From: Mailhella massiliensis
GTDB taxonomy: Bacteria > Desulfobacterota > Desulfovibrionia > Desulfovibrionales > Desulfovibrionaceae
Direction: 5' to 3'
DNA: 64,000 nt
Assembly (NCBI RefSeq): GCF_900155525.1
Contig: NZ_LT706942.1
Location: forward strand, 112,553 to 176,552
Under the pieces are notes generated by a model, which saw only the letters and a list, made by a program, of their open reading frames with translations, did no database searches and had not been told where the DNA came from. This document shows positions 37,938 to 45,362 of this stretch, one piece after another (within the stretch, counting starts at the first letter, position 1; each line of letters starts with the position of its first letter). The translations under genes were made by a program, and so were the position numbers.

Positions 37938-38216
37938 AGGGAGAAAAGGCGAAGCCGTCTCCGCCCCCGCGGAGGGAGCGTTTTTCCCGTTGCCGCAAGG
38001 CAAGGAGTACGGCCGGAAGGGGCGGAAAAACGGGACATTCTTTCAAAACGCATTCCACGGCGGCTCTGGACTTGACGTCGGAAGTGTGTTCTACTGCATG
38101 TTGTTAAAAGGGATACTGCTGTCCTTTTTTTGTCAGACACTGAAAGGCTTTTTCTGTGCCGGGCAGAAAGCATCGTGAGTTTCGACCGGTTTGAGAAGTC
38201 TTCAAGGGGAGTCTCT

Positions 38217-38774
38217 ATGAACATCACTAGGCTTGATAAAGCCAGGGACCTGAAGTTCAAGCGTCAGGTCGAAGAAGAGAGCGGTCAGAACCTGTCGGCC
38301 TGCTACCAATGCGGCAAGTGCACGGCGGGCTGCCCCGGCGCCCAGTTCTATGACCGTCAGGTCAGCCAGATCATGCGCGCCGTGCAGATGGGCCTCAAGG
38401 AAGAGGCCCTGAAGAACCGTTCGCTGTGGCTGTGTCTGTCGTGTTCGACCTGCAGCGCCCGCTGCCCCAATAATATCGACGTCGCCGCGGTGATGGAAAC
38501 GCTCCGCATGATGGCCCGTCGCGAGGGGTGGGTGCAGGATCGGCCCATCGAATCCTTCTGGAAGGCGTTTCTGGATACCGTGCACGCTACGGGCCGCTCC
38601 TATGAACTCGGCGTCATGGCCGACTACATGGGGCGCACGCTGCGCGGCTGGGGCAACCTGGAAATAGCCCCCACGGCGCTTCTGAAGAACAAGATGCCCT
38701 TCATTCCCTCCGTCATCCACGGCCGCGAGGAAGTGGCGCGCATATTCAAGCGCTACGCGGAAAAGAGGAGCTGA
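38217..38774 (+). CDS. hdrC: Heterodisulfide reductase-like subunit C
   Basis: The iron-sulfur subunit passing electrons between HdrA and HdrB. The 185-residue product has two [4Fe-4S] motifs, CYQCGKCTAGCP and CLSCSTCSARCP, and the usual HdrC helical C-terminus. GGGGAG precedes the ATG at 38217. It is the first gene of a six-gene operon with hdrB, hdrA, a FlxD-FlxC fusion, flxB and flxA, and ends three bases before hdrB. The roughly 280-bp upstream gap has a TTGACG that may be a -35 but no good -10. Confidence 0.93.
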   Translation: MNITRLDKARDLKFKRQVEEESGQNLSACYQCGKCTAGCPGAQFYDRQVSQIMRAVQMGLKEEALKNRSLWLCLSCSTCSARCPNNIDVAAVMETLRMMARREGWVQDRPIESFWKAFLDTVHATGRSYELGVMADYMGRTLRGWGNLEIAPTALLKNKMPFIPSVIHGREEVARIFKRYAEKRS

Positions 38775-38777
38775 GCC

Positions 38778-39728
38778 ATGAAATACGCCTACTATCCCGG
38801 CTGTTCGGGCCACGGCACCTCGGTGGAGTACGAAGCCTCCACCCGCGCGGTGTGCAACGCGCTGAACATGGATCTTGTGGAAATCGAAGACTGGAACTGC
38901 TGCGGCTCCACGCCCGCCCACTCCGTAAGTCACGAGCTTTCCGGCGCCCTTGCGGCGCGCAACCTGATGCAGGCCGCGAAAACCGGCGCCGACTGCGTGA
39001 TTTCTCCGTGCCCGAGCTGCTCTTCCAACCTGAAGATGGCCCGCTACCGTATGCAGAATCCCGCCTTCAAGGCCGGTGTGGACGAACTGCTCGACGCCCC
39101 CACCCCTGCCAATGCCGAAGGCGGGGCCGACCTCATGGAAACCTACTCCGTGCTTCAGGCCATCGTGGAGCATGTGGGGGTTGAGAACGTGGCTTCCCGC
39201 GTGACCTATCCTCTGGAAGGCGTGAAGGTCGTCACCTATTACGGCTGTCTCCTGAGCCGTCCCGCCCATGTGGCGAAGTTCGACGACCCGGAGAACCCCG
39301 TTTCCCTCGACAACATCATGAAGGCTCTCGGCGCGGAAGTTCTGCCCTTCGCGCTGAAGACGGAGTGCTGCGGCGCGGCCATGGGCATCCCGGACGTGAA
39401 TGTTCCCGGATCCCTGAGCGGCCGCATTCTCGACACGGCCAAGGCCGTGGGCGCGGAAGCCGTGGTTACCGCCTGCCCCCTGTGCCACATGAATCTCGAC
39501 CTGCGCCAGCGTCAGGCCGCCAGGATTTCGAAGAAGAGCTTTTTCGGTCTGCCGGTGTTCTACTACACCCAGCTGATCGCGCTCGCCTTCGGCCTGCCCA
39601 GAAACGCCATGCGTCTGGACAAGCTGGCCGTCAATCCCTATCCCCTTCTGGACAAGATCGCCGAGCGCCGCAAGGCGCGCGTTTCCGCCGAGCTTGAAGC
39701 CATGAAGGCCGCAGGAGCCGCATCATGA
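38778..39728 (+). CDS. hdrB: Heterodisulfide reductase-like subunit B
   Basis: The catalytic subunit with two CCG domains that hold the noncubane clusters acting on a disulfide; in sulfate reducers the partner is believed to be DsrC. The 316-residue product shows YYPGCSGHGTS, WNCCGSTP and ISPCPSC in the first half. YYGCLLSRP, ECCGAAMG and TACPLCHMNLDLRQ make up the second. It overlaps hdrA by four bases. Confidence 0.94.
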   Translation: MKYAYYPGCSGHGTSVEYEASTRAVCNALNMDLVEIEDWNCCGSTPAHSVSHELSGALAARNLMQAAKTGADCVISPCPSCSSNLKMARYRMQNPAFKAGVDELLDAPTPANAEGGADLMETYSVLQAIVEHVGVENVASRVTYPLEGVKVVTYYGCLLSRPAHVAKFDDPENPVSLDNIMKALGAEVLPFALKTECCGAAMGIPDVNVPGSLSGRILDTAKAVGAEAVVTACPLCHMNLDLRQRQAARISKKSFFGLPVFYYTQLIALAFGLPRNAMRLDKLAVNPYPLLDKIAERRKARVSAELEAMKAAGAAS

Positions 39729-41698
39729 AAATCGGCGTATTCGTCTGTCACTGCGGCAGCAACATCGAAGCGACGGTGGATACCGCCACGGTTGCCAAGA
39801 TCGCGCTGACCTACCCCGATGTCGTGTTCTCCGAAGACACCATGTACACCTGTTCCGAACCCGGGCAGGAAAACATCGTCCAGGCCATCAAGAAGCACGG
39901 CCTCGACGGCGTGGTGGTGGCTTCCTGCTCTCCGCGTATGCACGAACCCACGTTCCGCCGCACCGTGGAACGCGCTGGTCTCAACCGCTACATGTTTGAA
40001 ATGGCCAACATCCGCGAACACGTTTCGTGGATCGGCCGCGACCGCGAAGCCAATACCAACAAGGCCGCCGAGCTGGTGCGTCTTGCCGTGGAAAAGCTGC
40101 GCCGCAACACGCCCCTTTACGCCAAGCAGTTCGACGTGACCAAGCGCGTTCTCGTCATCGGCGGCGGCGTGGCGGGCATCCAGGCCGCTCTCGACGCTGC
40201 CGAATCCGGCATAGGCGTGGTCATGGTGGAACGCGAAAGCACCATCGGCGGCAAGATGGCCAAACTCGACAAGACCTTCCCCACCATCGACTGCTCGAGC
40301 TGCGTGCTCGCCCCCAAGATGGTGGACGTGGCCCAGAACCCCAACATCACGCTGTACGCCCATTCCGAGGTGGAGAGCATTTCCGGCTTCGTCGGCAACT
40401 TTACCGTGAAGATCAGAAAGCGCGCCACCTATGTGGACTGGGACAAGTGCACCGGCTGCGGAACCTGCACCGAGAAGTGCCCCAGCAAGAACGTGCCCGA
40501 CGCCTTCAACGAAGGCATCAGCAACTGCCGCGCCATCAACATTCCCTTCCCCCAGGCCATTCCCAAGAAGGCCACCATCAACCCCGACTACTGCCGCAAG
40601 ATCAAGGAAGGCAAGTGCGGCGTGTGTTCCAAGGTGTGCCCCACCGGAGCCATCGTGTACGATATGGTGGATGAGATCGTGGAAGAAAAGGTGGGCGCCA
40701 TCATCGCGGCCACCGGTTACGACCTGGTGGACTGGACCGTGTACAAGGAATACGGTGCTGGCGCCTATCCCGACGTCATCACCAGCCTCCAGTACGAACG
40801 CATGATGTCCGCTTCCGGCCCCACCGGCGGCCATATCCACCGTCCCTCCGACGGTATGGAACCGAAGAACATCGTGTTCATCCAGTGCGTGGGGTCCCGC
40901 GACTGCTCCATCGGCCGCCCCTACTGCTCGGGCTTCTGCTGCATGTACACGGCCAAGCAGGCCATCATGACCAAGGACCATCTGCCGGATGCGGAAGCCT
41001 TCGTGTTCTATATGGACATCCGCGCCCCGGGCAAGATGTATGACGAATTCACCCGCCGCGCTCAGGAAGAGTACGGCGTGCAGTACATCCGCGGCCGTGT
41101 TTCGGCCATACAGCCCACGGTGCGTCCCGACGGCAAGGTCGGCTACATCGTGCGCGGCGCGGATACGCTGCTCGGCGAATCCGTGGAGGTCGATGCGGAC
41201 ATGGTGGTTCTCGCCGTGGGCGTGGAAGGCTCCAGGGGCGCGGGCAATCTTGCGGAAAAGCTCCGCATTTCCTACGACCATTTCGGCTTCTTCATGGAAA
41301 GCCATGTGAAGCTGCGCCCCGTGGAAACCAATACCGCAGGCGTGTACCTCGCCGGCGTGTGCCAGGGCCCCAAGGATATTCCCGCCTCCGTCGCACAGGG
41401 CAGCGCCGCGGCCGCCAAGGTCATGGCTCTGTTCTCCAAGCCCAAGCTTGAGAACGACCCCCAGGTCTCCGTGGTGGACATCAAGCGCTGCGTGGCCTGC
41501 GGCAAGTGCATCAAGGTCTGCCCCTATCAGGCCATCGAGGAAGTGGAGATCCGCGGTCAGAAGAAGGCCCATGTGATCGAAACGGTCTGCCAGGGCTGCG
41601 GCGTCTGCACGGCCACCTGCCCGCAGGGCGCCATTCAGGTCGCCCATTTCACTGACAATCAGCTTCTCGCGGAGGTGAACGCCCTATGTCTGTCTTAG
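39725..41698 (+). CDS. hdrA: Heterodisulfide reductase-like subunit A
   Basis: The FAD and iron-sulfur hub thought to bifurcate electrons. The 657-residue product has the HdrA N-terminal domain (VFVCHCGSNIE), an FAD Rossmann motif VIGGGVAGIQAALDAAE and the conserved DCSSCVLAPKM. Four ferredoxin motifs are visible: CTGCGTCTEKCP, CGVCSKVCP, CVACGKCIKVCP and CQGCGVCTATCP. No selenocysteine is seen. It overlaps the next gene by 13 bases. In Desulfovibrio the related complex accepts electrons from the FlxABCD module encoded next. Confidence 0.95.
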   Translation: MKIGVFVCHCGSNIEATVDTATVAKIALTYPDVVFSEDTMYTCSEPGQENIVQAIKKHGLDGVVVASCSPRMHEPTFRRTVERAGLNRYMFEMANIREHVSWIGRDREANTNKAAELVRLAVEKLRRNTPLYAKQFDVTKRVLVIGGGVAGIQAALDAAESGIGVVMVERESTIGGKMAKLDKTFPTIDCSSCVLAPKMVDVAQNPNITLYAHSEVESISGFVGNFTVKIRKRATYVDWDKCTGCGTCTEKCPSKNVPDAFNEGISNCRAINIPFPQAIPKKATINPDYCRKIKEGKCGVCSKVCPTGAIVYDMVDEIVEEKVGAIIAATGYDLVDWTVYKEYGAGAYPDVITSLQYERMMSASGPTGGHIHRPSDGMEPKNIVFIQCVGSRDCSIGRPYCSGFCCMYTAKQAIMTKDHLPDAEAFVFYMDIRAPGKMYDEFTRRAQEEYGVQYIRGRVSAIQPTVRPDGKVGYIVRGADTLLGESVEVDADMVVLAVGVEGSRGAGNLAEKLRISYDHFGFFMESHVKLRPVETNTAGVYLAGVCQGPKDIPASVAQGSAAAAKVMALFSKPKLENDPQVSVVDIKRCVACGKCIKVCPYQAIEEVEIRGQKKAHVIETVCQGCGVCTATCPQGAIQVAHFTDNQLLAEVNALCLS

Positions 41699-43140
41699 CC
41701 GGCAAGGAGCTCCGTATCGTAGGTTTTCTGTGTAACTGGTGCTCTTACGGCGGCGCCGACACGGCCGGTACCGCCCGTGCCGTTCAGCCTACCGACCTTC
41801 GCATCATCCGCGTTCCCTGCTCGGGCCGCGTGAATCCTCTCTTCGTGCTCAAGGCCCTCATCAACGGGGCCGACGGCGTTCTGGTGTCGGGCTGCCATCC
41901 GCGCGACTGCCATTACTCCGCGGGCAACTACTACGCCCGTCGCCGTCTGGAAATGCTCAAGCAGTTTCTGCCCGTCATCGGCATCAACCCCGACCGCTTC
42001 GAGTACACCTGGGTTTCCGCCTCCGAAGGTCAGCGCTGGAAGGACGTGGTGACCAACTTCACGAACCGCATCCATGCCCTCGGCCCGGCCCCCCGCTGGG
42101 AAGACGTGCCCGCCCGGTACGACAGACCCGAGGAACTCGTGGAGTCCATCCGTCCTCTGGGCTGCGGCGAACATCCCTCCCTGCCCGAACTCAAACAGGC
42201 CATCAAGGACGCCCTGGCGGGCGGCCTGGAAGGCGTGCTCGGCTGGAAGCAGGGCTTCGACGCCGTACATGCGGAACCTGTGTTCATGACCACGCCCGAA
42301 GAAGTGGATTCCCTCATCTGGGGCCCCTTCAACGTGCACAACCTCGCCGTATATCTGCCCCAGTACAAGGGCCGCAAGATAGGCGTGGTGGTCAAGGGCT
42401 GCGACAGCAAGGGCGTTGTGGAACTTCTGGCCGAAGAGCTCATTTCCCGCGAGGATGTGAAGATCTTCGGCATGGGCTGCAACGGCACGGTGAACGTGTC
42501 CCGCGTGCTGGCGAAGCTCCCCGAAGGAGCGAAGGTGGAATCCTTCACGGGCAAGGGCAACAGGCTCATCGTCACCGCCGATGGTCAGGAATACGAAATG
42601 ACCATGGCTGAAGTGGCGCAGGACAAGTGCCGCACCTGCACCAGGCCCAACGCCGTGCTTTCCGACGTGTTTGTGGGCAGACCCACCATCGAGCCCGAGG
42701 AACCTGCCGACGGCCGCAGCCCCGCGCTGCGCTTCCTCGACTCCCTGAGCCTTGAGGAACGCATGGGCTACTGGAAGGGCCAGATGGAACGCTGCATCGC
42801 CTGCCATGCCTGCCGCGGCGCCTGCCCCATGTGCGTATGCCGCGACCACTGCGTGTCCGATTCGCGCGATCCCGCGTGGGTCACGCAGGAAGACACCGTG
42901 CAGCAGAAGCTGTTCTTCCAGCTCATCCACGCCCAGCATCTCGCCGGGCGCTGCACGGGCTGCACCGAATGCGAACGCGCCTGCCCCATGGACATTCCCG
43001 TGTTCGCGCTCAAGCAGCAGTTTGGCCGCATGATTAAGAAGATCTTCAGCTACGGCGCGGGCCTTGATGTGAACGCCACGCCTCCGCTGCTCACCTATCA
43101 GGTGGAAGAACCGACTATCAAGGAGCGTGATCTGGCATGA
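41686..43140 (+). CDS. FlxD (MvhD-type) and FlxC-like iron-sulfur fusion
   Basis: A 484-residue cytosolic protein with two parts. Residues 8-135 are an MvhD/FlpD domain (FLCNWCSYGGADTAG, VPCSGRVNP, SGCHPRDCHY), the link between the electron-input module and HdrA. Residues about 195-460 resemble the F420-hydrogenase-beta-like subunit with a ferredoxin end (VVVKGCDSKGV, MGCNGTVN, CIACHACRGACPMCVC, CTGCTECERACP), i.e. a FlxC-type protein. In the FlxABCD-HdrABC systems I recall these are separate genes, so this appears to be a FlxD-FlxC fusion. It overlaps both neighbours. Confidence 0.85.
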   Translation: MSVLAGKELRIVGFLCNWCSYGGADTAGTARAVQPTDLRIIRVPCSGRVNPLFVLKALINGADGVLVSGCHPRDCHYSAGNYYARRRLEMLKQFLPVIGINPDRFEYTWVSASEGQRWKDVVTNFTNRIHALGPAPRWEDVPARYDRPEELVESIRPLGCGEHPSLPELKQAIKDALAGGLEGVLGWKQGFDAVHAEPVFMTTPEEVDSLIWGPFNVHNLAVYLPQYKGRKIGVVVKGCDSKGVVELLAEELISREDVKIFGMGCNGTVNVSRVLAKLPEGAKVESFTGKGNRLIVTADGQEYEMTMAEVAQDKCRTCTRPNAVLSDVFVGRPTIEPEEPADGRSPALRFLDSLSLEERMGYWKGQMERCIACHACRGACPMCVCRDHCVSDSRDPAWVTQEDTVQQKLFFQLIHAQHLAGRCTGCTECERACPMDIPVFALKQQFGRMIKKIFSYGAGLDVNATPPLLTYQVEEPTIKERDLA

Positions 43141-44501
43141 GCAGTCTCCTTTTCGCAACACCGAAAGAGCTGACGGGCTGGCTTTCCCACCTGGCCTCAG
43201 GCTATCGCGTGCTGGCTCCCCGCAAGGAAGGCCCCAGCGTGGTCTATCGCCCGCATACGGCGGAAGAACTCGCCTCCGCCGATGTGGATGCGCTGCTTCG
43301 CCGCGCCACGGCTTCTCCCAAGCAGGCCATGCTGCCCCAGTGTGAAACGCTGGTGACCTTCAAGTCCGTGAAGAACGAGGAAGACCCCTCGAAGCTGACC
43401 ACCACGCTGGAAAATCCCTGTCAGGCCGAACCCACGGTACTTTTCGGCTGCCGCCCCTGCGACGCGCGCGGCTTCGTGGTGCTCGACCGCCCCTACCTGG
43501 AAGGAAAGTTCAAGGACCCGTACTACGGCGCCCGCCGCAAGGCCACCGTCATCGTGACGCAGGCCTGTCCCACGGCCTTCTCTTCCTGTTTCTGCAACTG
43601 GGTGGGGAGCCATCCTTCCGATAAGGAAGGTTCCGACGTCTTCTTCACCGCCGTGGAAGGCGGCTTCGTGCTGGAAGCGGTGACGGAAAAGGGCGCCTCC
43701 CTGCTGGAAGGCGCGGGCTTTGCCGACGCTGCCGACAGGGTCGCCGATGTGGAAGCTGCTCATGTCGCCGCAGCAGCCTCCCTGCCTGCGCCCTCCACGC
43801 TGACCCATGTGGCCGAAAAGGTGGCTTCCCGCTTCACCGATACGGCCTTCTGGGAAAAGGAAACGGTCAAGTGCCTTTCCTGCGGCGCGTGCACCTACCT
43901 GTGCCCCACCTGCCAGTGCTTCACCATTACCGATGAAGGCTCGCAGCTGGACGGCCGCCGCCTGCGCAGCTGGGATTCCTGCATGTCTCCGCTCTTTACG
44001 CTGGAGACGAGCGGGCACAATCCCCGTCCGAGCAAGGCCGACCGTATGCGCAACCGCGTCAGCCACAAGTTCAGCTTCTACCCTGAACGCTACGACGGCT
44101 TCTTCTCCTGCGTGGGCTGCGGCCGCTGCGTGGTGAGCTGCCCCGTGTCGCTGGATATCCGGCACATGGTGAAGGCCGCCGTGGAAGGCGCGACCATCGA
44201 AATCAAGGAAGAAGCGGCTCCCGCTCCTGCGGAAGCCCCTGCGCCCGAAGCTGCCGCGGTGGAAGTCCCCGTGGAAGCTGCGGCTGCGGAAAAGGCCGCT
44301 GCGCCCACCCCGGTGGAAGCTCCCGCCCCTGCGGAAGCCGCTCCCGAAGCTGCGGCGGAAGAAGTCGCCGTGGCGGAAGCGCCTGCCGAAGCTCCGGCTG
44401 CGGAAGTCGTCGAAGCCCCCAAGGCTCAGGTCAAGGCATCCGCGCCGAAAGCCGCGCCGAAGACTTCCCGTTCTTCCAAAAGCAAGGCCAAGAAGAGGTA
44501 A
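43137..44501 (+). CDS. flxB: FlxB-like iron-sulfur protein with an Ala/Pro/Glu tail
   Basis: A 4Fe-4S dicluster subunit like that of anaerobic sulfite reductase A, passing electrons from FlxA. The conserved part (residues 1-355) has FGCRPCDARGF, CPTAFSSCFC, CLSCGACTYLCPTC and CVGCGRCVVSCP. Residues 358-454 (44208-44498) are a low-complexity run of Ala, Pro, Glu and Val that ends Lys/Ser-rich. That tail is not part of the family as I know it and resembles a flexible linker. The start overlaps the fusion gene by four bases. Confidence 0.88.
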   Translation: MSSLLFATPKELTGWLSHLASGYRVLAPRKEGPSVVYRPHTAEELASADVDALLRRATASPKQAMLPQCETLVTFKSVKNEEDPSKLTTTLENPCQAEPTVLFGCRPCDARGFVVLDRPYLEGKFKDPYYGARRKATVIVTQACPTAFSSCFCNWVGSHPSDKEGSDVFFTAVEGGFVLEAVTEKGASLLEGAGFADAADRVADVEAAHVAAAASLPAPSTLTHVAEKVASRFTDTAFWEKETVKCLSCGACTYLCPTCQCFTITDEGSQLDGRRLRSWDSCMSPLFTLETSGHNPRPSKADRMRNRVSHKFSFYPERYDGFFSCVGCGRCVVSCPVSLDIRHMVKAAVEGATIEIKEEAAPAPAEAPAPEAAAVEVPVEAAAAEKAAAPTPVEAPAPAEAAPEAAAEEVAVAEAPAEAPAAEVVEAPKAQVKASAPKAAPKTSRSSKSKAKKR

Positions 44502-44510
44502 GGAGAGACT

Positions 44511-45362
44511 ATGAGCGAACATAACTGCGGCTGCAGCAAGAATCCTTACCTGCCTGAAGTCGCCACGGTTCTGGAAGTCATCACGGAATCGCCCACCATC
44601 AAGTCGTTCCGCGTGCGCTTCGACAATGAGGAAGCCTGGAACAGCTTCACCTACCAGCCCGGTCAGGTGGGGCAGCTTTCCGTGTTCGGCGTGGGCGAAT
44701 CCACGTTCGTCATCAACACTCCGCCTTCATGCAGGGATTACCTTCAGTTTTCCGTCATGCGCGCAGGCGAGGTGACCACCGCCATCCACAAGCTGCAGCC
44801 CGGCGACAAGGTGGGCGTGCGTGCTCCTCTGGGGAACTATTTCCCCTATGAGCAGTGGAAGGGCAAGAACATCGTGTTCGTGGGCGGCGGCATCGGCATG
44901 GCGCCCATCCGCACCATCATGCTGCACGTCATGGAGCACGCTTCCGAGTACGGCAAGCTCAGCCTGCTGTACGGCGCGCGTTCTCCCGAAGACATGGCCT
45001 TCAAGGGCGACCTGCCCGGTTGGCTGGAGAGCGACGTTCTGCACACCACGCTCACCATCGACCGCGAAGCGCCCAACTGGCCTCACCGCGTGGGCATGAT
45101 TCCCAACGTGCTCAAGGAACTCGCCCCCAGCCCGGACAACACCATCGCCGTGCTCTGCGGCCCGCCCATCATGATCAAGTTCACGCTGGCGGCGTTCCGC
45201 GAACTGGGCTTCAAGGATGAGAACATCATCACCACCCTTGAGCGCCGCATGAAGTGCGGTATCGGCATCTGCGGGCGCTGCAATCTGGGCGGCAAGTTCG
45301 TCTGCCTGGACGGTCCCGTGTTCTCGCAGGCTCAGCTCAACGAGCTGCCCCCGGAAATGTAG
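44511..45362 (+). CDS. flxA: FlxA-like NAD(P)H/FAD oxidoreductase
   Basis: The electron-entry subunit, expected to oxidise NAD(P)H and feed FlxB, the FlxD-FlxC fusion and Hdr. The 283-residue product is a ferredoxin-reductase-type flavoprotein: an FAD barrel (QPGQVGQLSVFG), an NAD-binding fold (VFVGGGIGMAPIRTIM, VLCGPPIMIKFT) and a C-terminal [2Fe-2S] site CGIGICGRCNLGGKFVC. It resembles anaerobic sulfite reductase B and PyrK. An AAGGAGAG lies before the start. It is last in the operon, followed by a terminator. Confidence 0.92.
   Translation: MSEHNCGCSKNPYLPEVATVLEVITESPTIKSFRVRFDNEEAWNSFTYQPGQVGQLSVFGVGESTFVINTPPSCRDYLQFSVMRAGEVTTAIHKLQPGDKVGVRAPLGNYFPYEQWKGKNIVFVGGGIGMAPIRTIMLHVMEHASEYGKLSLLYGARSPEDMAFKGDLPGWLESDVLHTTLTIDREAPNWPHRVGMIPNVLKELAPSPDNTIAVLCGPPIMIKFTLAAFRELGFKDENIITTLERRMKCGIGICGRCNLGGKFVCLDGPVFSQAQLNELPPEM

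Follow-up and report, generated by a model that had tools for sequence, protein, structure and literature searches.

Among described systems, FlxB of D. vulgaris Hildenborough (DVU_2400), a component of FlxABCD-HdrABC, is of the same subunit type and belongs to the same kind of operon as the protein considered here. According to PMC10920352, the complex probably transfers electrons of NADH to ferredoxin and DsrC; D. vulgaris, like the organism studied here, has FlxC and FlxD in one fused protein, and DVU_2400 is listed at 39.4 kDa, a mass that by itself would leave little room for a long tail. According to two further papers, hdrABC-flxABCD is among the genes essential for gut colonisation of mice by Bilophila wadsworthia (PMC12125255), and Mailhella, from the same group as Bilophila, is a proposed sulfonate respirer (PMC13219744). 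The best solved match to a model of the present FlxB is the beta subunit of P. furiosus SHI sulfhydrogenase 1 (9nez_B; Foldseek E 1.3e-16, sequence search E 1.2e-34), which has in common with FlxB the fold and the two-cluster C-terminal region; the sequence match stops at position 327 of 367, the query being FlxB without most of its tail.

Linkers rich in Ala, Pro and Glu, similar in composition to the tail described below, are found in lipoyl and biotinyl carrier proteins. There, however, the linker bears a carrier domain, whereas the FlxB tail ends in a basic tip. Low-complexity charged tails or linkers are also familiar from the Lys/Ala-rich C-termini of gamma-proteobacterial RnfC/RsxC, from histone-H1-like proteins and from TonB/TolA, and RnfC is itself an iron-sulfur electron-transfer subunit. 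What they have in common with FlxB is a low-complexity charged extension; in FlxB the spacer and the tip are charge-sorted. A literature search on FlxB tails and on disordered or bifurcating-enzyme tails found no such tail among the papers listed; it covered the Flx-Hdr papers in part, and the tail may be reported among them.

The Flx-Hdr operon and its FlxB subunit

The window, a 64,000-nucleotide stretch of Mailhella massiliensis DNA, contains the gene order hdrC-hdrB-hdrA-flxCD-flxB-flxA, which is the Flx-Hdr arrangement. Lying between flxC/D and flxA and adjoining hdrABC, flxB occupies the position of the FlxB gene of FlxABCD-HdrABC. Its product is an AsrA/HydB-like protein with a C-terminal 4Fe-4S dicluster: the Pfam search matches it to PF17179 (E 8.5e-32, 110 bits), and its best NCBIfam matches are AsrA, ShyB and HydB. 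Identity with anaerobic sulfite reductase AsrA itself was rejected on a score of 139.3 bits, under the NCBIfam equivalog cut-off of 323.15. HdrA scores 819 bits against HdrA2, below the cut-off of 1100, and is therefore treated as a homologue and not as an equivalog. The Pfam, locus-comparison and charge analyses of HdrC ran from 38220, one codon short of the start given in the table.

Features of the Flx-Hdr operon and of its FlxB subunit, in window positions
Feature	Position	Strand	Remarks
HdrC	38217..38774	+	PF13534; ATG at 38217 is the chosen start, TTG at 38130 in the ORF list
HdrB	38778..39728	+	two CCG domains, PF02754
HdrA	39725..41698	+	best NCBIfam match HdrA2
FlxCD fusion	41686..43140	+	MvhD/FlpD, FrhB C-terminal and 4Fe-4S domains; PF02662, PF04432, PF13187
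FlxB ORF	43137..44501	+	454 aa
FlxB folded part, residues 1-351	43137..44189	+	AsrA/sulfhydrogenase-beta-like; Fer4_22 dicluster domain at residues 245-338
FlxB tail spacer, residues 352-432	44190..44432	+	A/P/E/V-rich, net acidic; length hypervariable across the genus
FlxB tail tip, residues 433-454	44433..44498	+	KASAPKAAPKTSRSSKSKAKKR; 9 K/R, 0 E/D
Stop codon and Shine-Dalgarno-like GGAG ahead of flxA	44499..44510	+
FlxA-like FAD/NAD-binding subunit	44511..45362	+	PF00175, PF10418; 9-base gap to flxB

A frameshift past 44501, raised as a possibility in a preliminary sequence-only reading, is absent: flxB stops at TAA, followed by GGAG and then by the flxA ATG at 44511. The same reading had suggested that the tail might tether a domain since lost. 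As flxA starts nine bases past the flxB stop, the gap is too small for a domain to have been lost there, and the flxB-flxA junction is the same in relatives of the genus.

Two observations concern neighbouring genes. FlxC and FlxD make up a single 484-residue protein in the window and are separate genes in some relatives (L187-L190, L197, L199 and L200). The one dsrC found in the genome (L201, C18:181738-182040) shares a contig with the Flx-Hdr operon and lies about 5 kb past the window end.

The C-terminal tail of FlxB

Directly after a helix ending ...SLDIRHMVKAAVEG, at residue 352 (44190), FlxB continues into a 103-residue Ala/Pro/Glu tail (residues 352-454, 44190-44498), with the start set by comparison with relatives. 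The 97-residue tail first recognized at 44208-44498, which corresponds to residues 358-454, is thus borne out, with the start placed six residues earlier. Ala, Pro and Glu account for 69% of the tail, compared with at most 33% of any 98-residue stretch within residues 1-346, and Trp, Tyr, Phe, Cys, His, Met and Leu do not occur in it. The tail has a net charge of -5, and its charges are sorted along its length: residues 352-432 contain 3 Lys/Arg versus 17 Glu/Asp, and the last 22 residues 9 versus 0. Shuffling the same residues reached this degree of sorting in 0 of 5000 trials. The initial description of a flexible, linker-like extension ending in a basic patch agrees with the sequence, and such a patch could anchor or tether the protein.

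The AlphaFold2 model of FlxB (mean pLDDT 66.9) gives the tail neither helix nor strand, and pLDDT falls below 50 at residues 357-391, 399-426 and 429-454, that is, over most of 357-454. Together with the low complexity of the region, this prediction fits a disordered tail, its weight limited by the shallow alignment of 15 sequences. At an E value of 0.001 the tail matches no Pfam domain. The proposed analogy to swinging arms consequently fails: no lipoyl or biotinyl carrier domain is present, and the next gene lies nine bases on.

Nor is the tail a habit of the genome at large. In a search against the whole genome it matched only itself at E values up to 10, in a comparison where composition correction may hide other matches. 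We also ran a simple custom ORF caller over a 379-kb sample of this genome that takes in the window; of the 240 ORFs sampled, FlxB alone (1 of 240) combined an A/P/E fraction of at least 0.55 at residues -62 to -23 with a net charge of at least +6 in the last 22 residues. Two other proteins were noted. A D-alanyl-D-alanine carboxypeptidase of the same genome (PF00768; L157:14543-15709) also ends in a Lys/Ser-rich tail, ...KKSKSPSRKSAAADKRQSTRKKSKQ, and a 313-residue ORF without a Pfam match (L136:14209-15150, minus strand) is rich in A/P/E/Q near its C-terminus.

Distribution of the tail in Mailhella and beyond

The tail is found in all 16 Mailhella genomes with an flxB match among the 19 searched; the three genomes without a match are incomplete assemblies (69-84% complete). 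Across these 16 genomes it ranges from 29 to 174 residues, with a median of 80.5. Absence from all relatives was to have counted against the tail; its presence in these genomes means that the finding stands. Elsewhere in the operon, the C-termini of FlxA, FlxCD and HdrA do not vary in length in any locus that covers the gene (three Mailhella 20-kb loci and the 12 related loci L039-L050), and in the same comparison that of HdrB differs by roughly 12 residues at most. In what was compared, the tail is restricted to FlxB.

Between Mailhella species the spacer sequence is scrambled, whereas the end stays Lys-rich, and it remains basic down to 70% identity between FlxB cores and that of the window. 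The seven C-terminal residues of L001-L009 read KSKAKKR or near variants, with charged positions differing by K/R swaps only. Looser ends elsewhere in the genus are KSKSKKR, KGKPKKR, KGKSKKK and SGKKSR; L013 ends in GKEKI and L016 in SSGKE, with a Shine-Dalgarno-like AAGGAG inside those last codons. The most frequent tip, K-S-K-[AS]-[KR]-K-R-stop, expressed as a codon pattern that is degenerate and admits some neighbouring sequences, has seven matches in the 19 Mailhella genomes, all seven at flxB ends. These come from only 7 of the 16 tailed genomes, and the exact tip is thus not invariant.

The strongest rival to a functional reading is neutral or nearly neutral growth, in which an exposed C-terminus drifted past an old stop and lengthened by repeat slippage, favoured by the GCN, CCN and GAR codons of a GC-rich genome, so that the tail does nothing specific and its basic end is an ancestral leftover. 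The length range of 29 to 174 residues inside one genus is what such growth would produce. Moreover, the two long tails inspected (L041 and L039) contain tandem repeats at the DNA level, which suggests that spacers may grow by slippage; in the window tail such repeats are weak only. That most FlxB family sequences read are tailless points the same way. Against neutral growth, the charge of the end is kept where the spacer is scrambled and FlxB cores are down to 70% identity, and over the last eight residues of L001-L009 charged positions change by K/R swaps alone. Basic-ended tails also recur in three other lineages, one of which (L073 and L084) has loci of 45% GC. On balance, we consider neutral growth a serious but somewhat unlikely account.

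To place the tail in the wider family, we read 137 FlxB C-termini, 16 from Mailhella and 121 from elsewhere, the latter with cases in which a genome contributes a second copy. They include 110 of 130 listed flxB places, the 20 left out being second copies, fragments and mostly low scorers, and, from a further listing, 20 of at least 22 additional places whose open frames run to 377 or more. Fewer than 20 residues follow the last helix in 117 of the sequences, 20-29 in none and at least 30 in 20, by a count that runs one residue per tail above that used for the 29-174 range. The tail is therefore as unexpected for this subunit as originally supposed, and it appears dispensable in most of the family, as judged from the sequences read.

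The 20 tailed proteins are the 16 of Mailhella plus L073, L084, L087 and L129. The last four represent three lineages, L073 and L084 being sisters in the tree, and their tails are Ala/Pro/Lys-rich with a net basic end. A tree of the FlxB folded parts requires five changes of the trait, at least four of them forced by strongly supported branches, in a quick maximum-likelihood reconstruction that has no bootstrap and contains several long branches; the tail thus arose, or was lost, several times. A tailless, long-branched FlxB (L017, from G102) is nested in the Mailhella clade of this tree, and its placement may reflect a loss of the tail. No link between the tail and the FlxC-FlxD fusion was seen: the two genes are separate in tailed L187-L190, and the fused form occurs with a tail in Mailhella and with no tail in L194, L195, L196 and L198. 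ORF counts around the non-Mailhella tails are poor controls: a GC-based caller gave six and four ORFs in L187 and L188 (45% GC), and a length-based caller missed FlxB in L189 and left it unflagged in L190.

Taken together, these results indicate that a known enzyme subunit carries a real extension, predicted to be disordered, which is kept within the lineage and dispensable in the wider family. Because it occurs throughout the genus, keeps its charged end and has been gained or lost repeatedly among relatives, the tail would offer a simple, deletable handle on whether such complexes are tethered. What lends it some interest is its reappearance in other lineages and the difference between a spacer that varies freely and a basic end that does not.

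Charge sorting and possible roles of the tail

The charge sorting seen in the window extends to most other tails. In 15 of the 20, at most 61 of 5000 same-residue shuffles match the observed contrast between the basic last 22 residues and the rest; in the other five (L011, L012, L013, L016 and L129) the contrast is non-significant, with 295 to 2995 of 5000 shuffles matching. Pooled over the 20 tails, the last 22 residues contain 165 Lys/Arg versus 11 Asp/Glu in 440 positions, and the spacers 67 versus 223 in 1145. The tail of L129 is basic throughout and has no acidic spacer, and the spacer of L073 is neutral (9 versus 9).

These data bear on whether translation initiation accounts for the basic tip as a side effect, with purine-rich DNA for flxA yielding Lys/Arg codons around a Shine-Dalgarno sequence at the end of flxB. 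The nine-base distance to flxA is compatible with this idea, as is a purine content of 60% in tip DNA compared with 53% in spacers. In addition, a run of the AAGGAG/AAGGGAG type lies inside the last flxB codons of L013, L016, L073, L087 and L129, so that their last few residues (such as GKE and KKGA) are partly set by it. Selection for purines would, however, permit GAA and GAG, yet the tips contain 156 AAA/AAG/AGA/AGG codons versus 8 GAA/GAG. The excess persists over residues -22 to -9, which precede any Shine-Dalgarno sequence (77 Lys/Arg versus 8 Glu/Asp over the 20 tails), and the contrast is thus not due to the last codons alone. Tailless relatives, for their part, average a net charge of -0.3 after the helix (117 sequences). 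The prevalence of Lys/Arg over Glu codons and the upstream excess together indicate that the tip does not simply reflect purine-rich DNA ahead of flxA. We therefore disfavour this explanation as very unlikely, although in certain relatives ribosome binding may influence the final few residues.

Still less probable is an encapsulation peptide that, carried on a linker, directs Flx-Hdr to a sulfonate microcompartment. In its favour, Flx-Hdr is co-expressed with the isethionate microcompartment in the relative Bilophila (PMC12125255), and encapsulation peptides are borne on disordered linkers (PMC12339742). An amphipathic helix is not in evidence here, the pooled tips having 2 ILMFVWY residues in 440 and no predicted helix. 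Shell genes (PF00936) do not follow the tail either: of 15 genomes tested in each group, 8 with the tail and 6 without it have them, and they were not found in tailed G012, G015, G016, G025, G090, G033 and G125. We regard this candidate as rejected. Within Mailhella, PF00936 is present in 8 of 11 genomes (G000, G001, G003, G007, G009 and G012-G017, the exceptions being G012, G015 and G016).

A further possibility is a non-specific solubility or spacing tail, an entropic bristle that prevents aggregation of the Flx-Hdr assembly and has no partner. The predicted disorder, hydrophilic character and net charge of -5 of the tail would suit such a role, as would the apparent unimportance of its length. 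A bristle leaves unexplained, though, why a cationic tip of charge opposite to that of the spacer is kept, and we think it improbable.

Our preferred interpretation, which we hold tentatively and at somewhat less than even confidence, is that the tail acts as a disordered electrostatic tether, its acidic spacer carrying a cationic tip that would bind an anionic partner. The Pro-rich acidic spacer would stay extended and provide reach, and the cationic, non-amphipathic tip would bind a nearby anionic surface. Candidate surfaces are an acidic protein with which the complex exchanges electrons (ferredoxin or DsrC, for example), the head groups of anionic lipids, and nucleic acid or ribosomes; among these we weakly prefer an acidic protein partner. 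The DsrC of this genome is mildly acidic only (net -4, pI 5.15). A 2023 article by Ferreira, cited in PMC10920352, states a direct DsrC interaction in its title. By holding on to such a surface, the tether would make the NADH-linked bifurcating Flx-Hdr complex locally more concentrated next to its partner. The length of the spacer would be nearly free and drift by repeat slippage, with selection keeping the tip.

A broader form of the tether proposal, which we consider unlikely, is that a disordered arm evolved repeatedly at the same exit point of FlxB and docks the bifurcating NADH:heterodisulfide-reductase-type complex to an anionic scaffold or redox partner. If true, it would amount to an evolvable tether for electron channelling, free in length and under selection at its charged tip.
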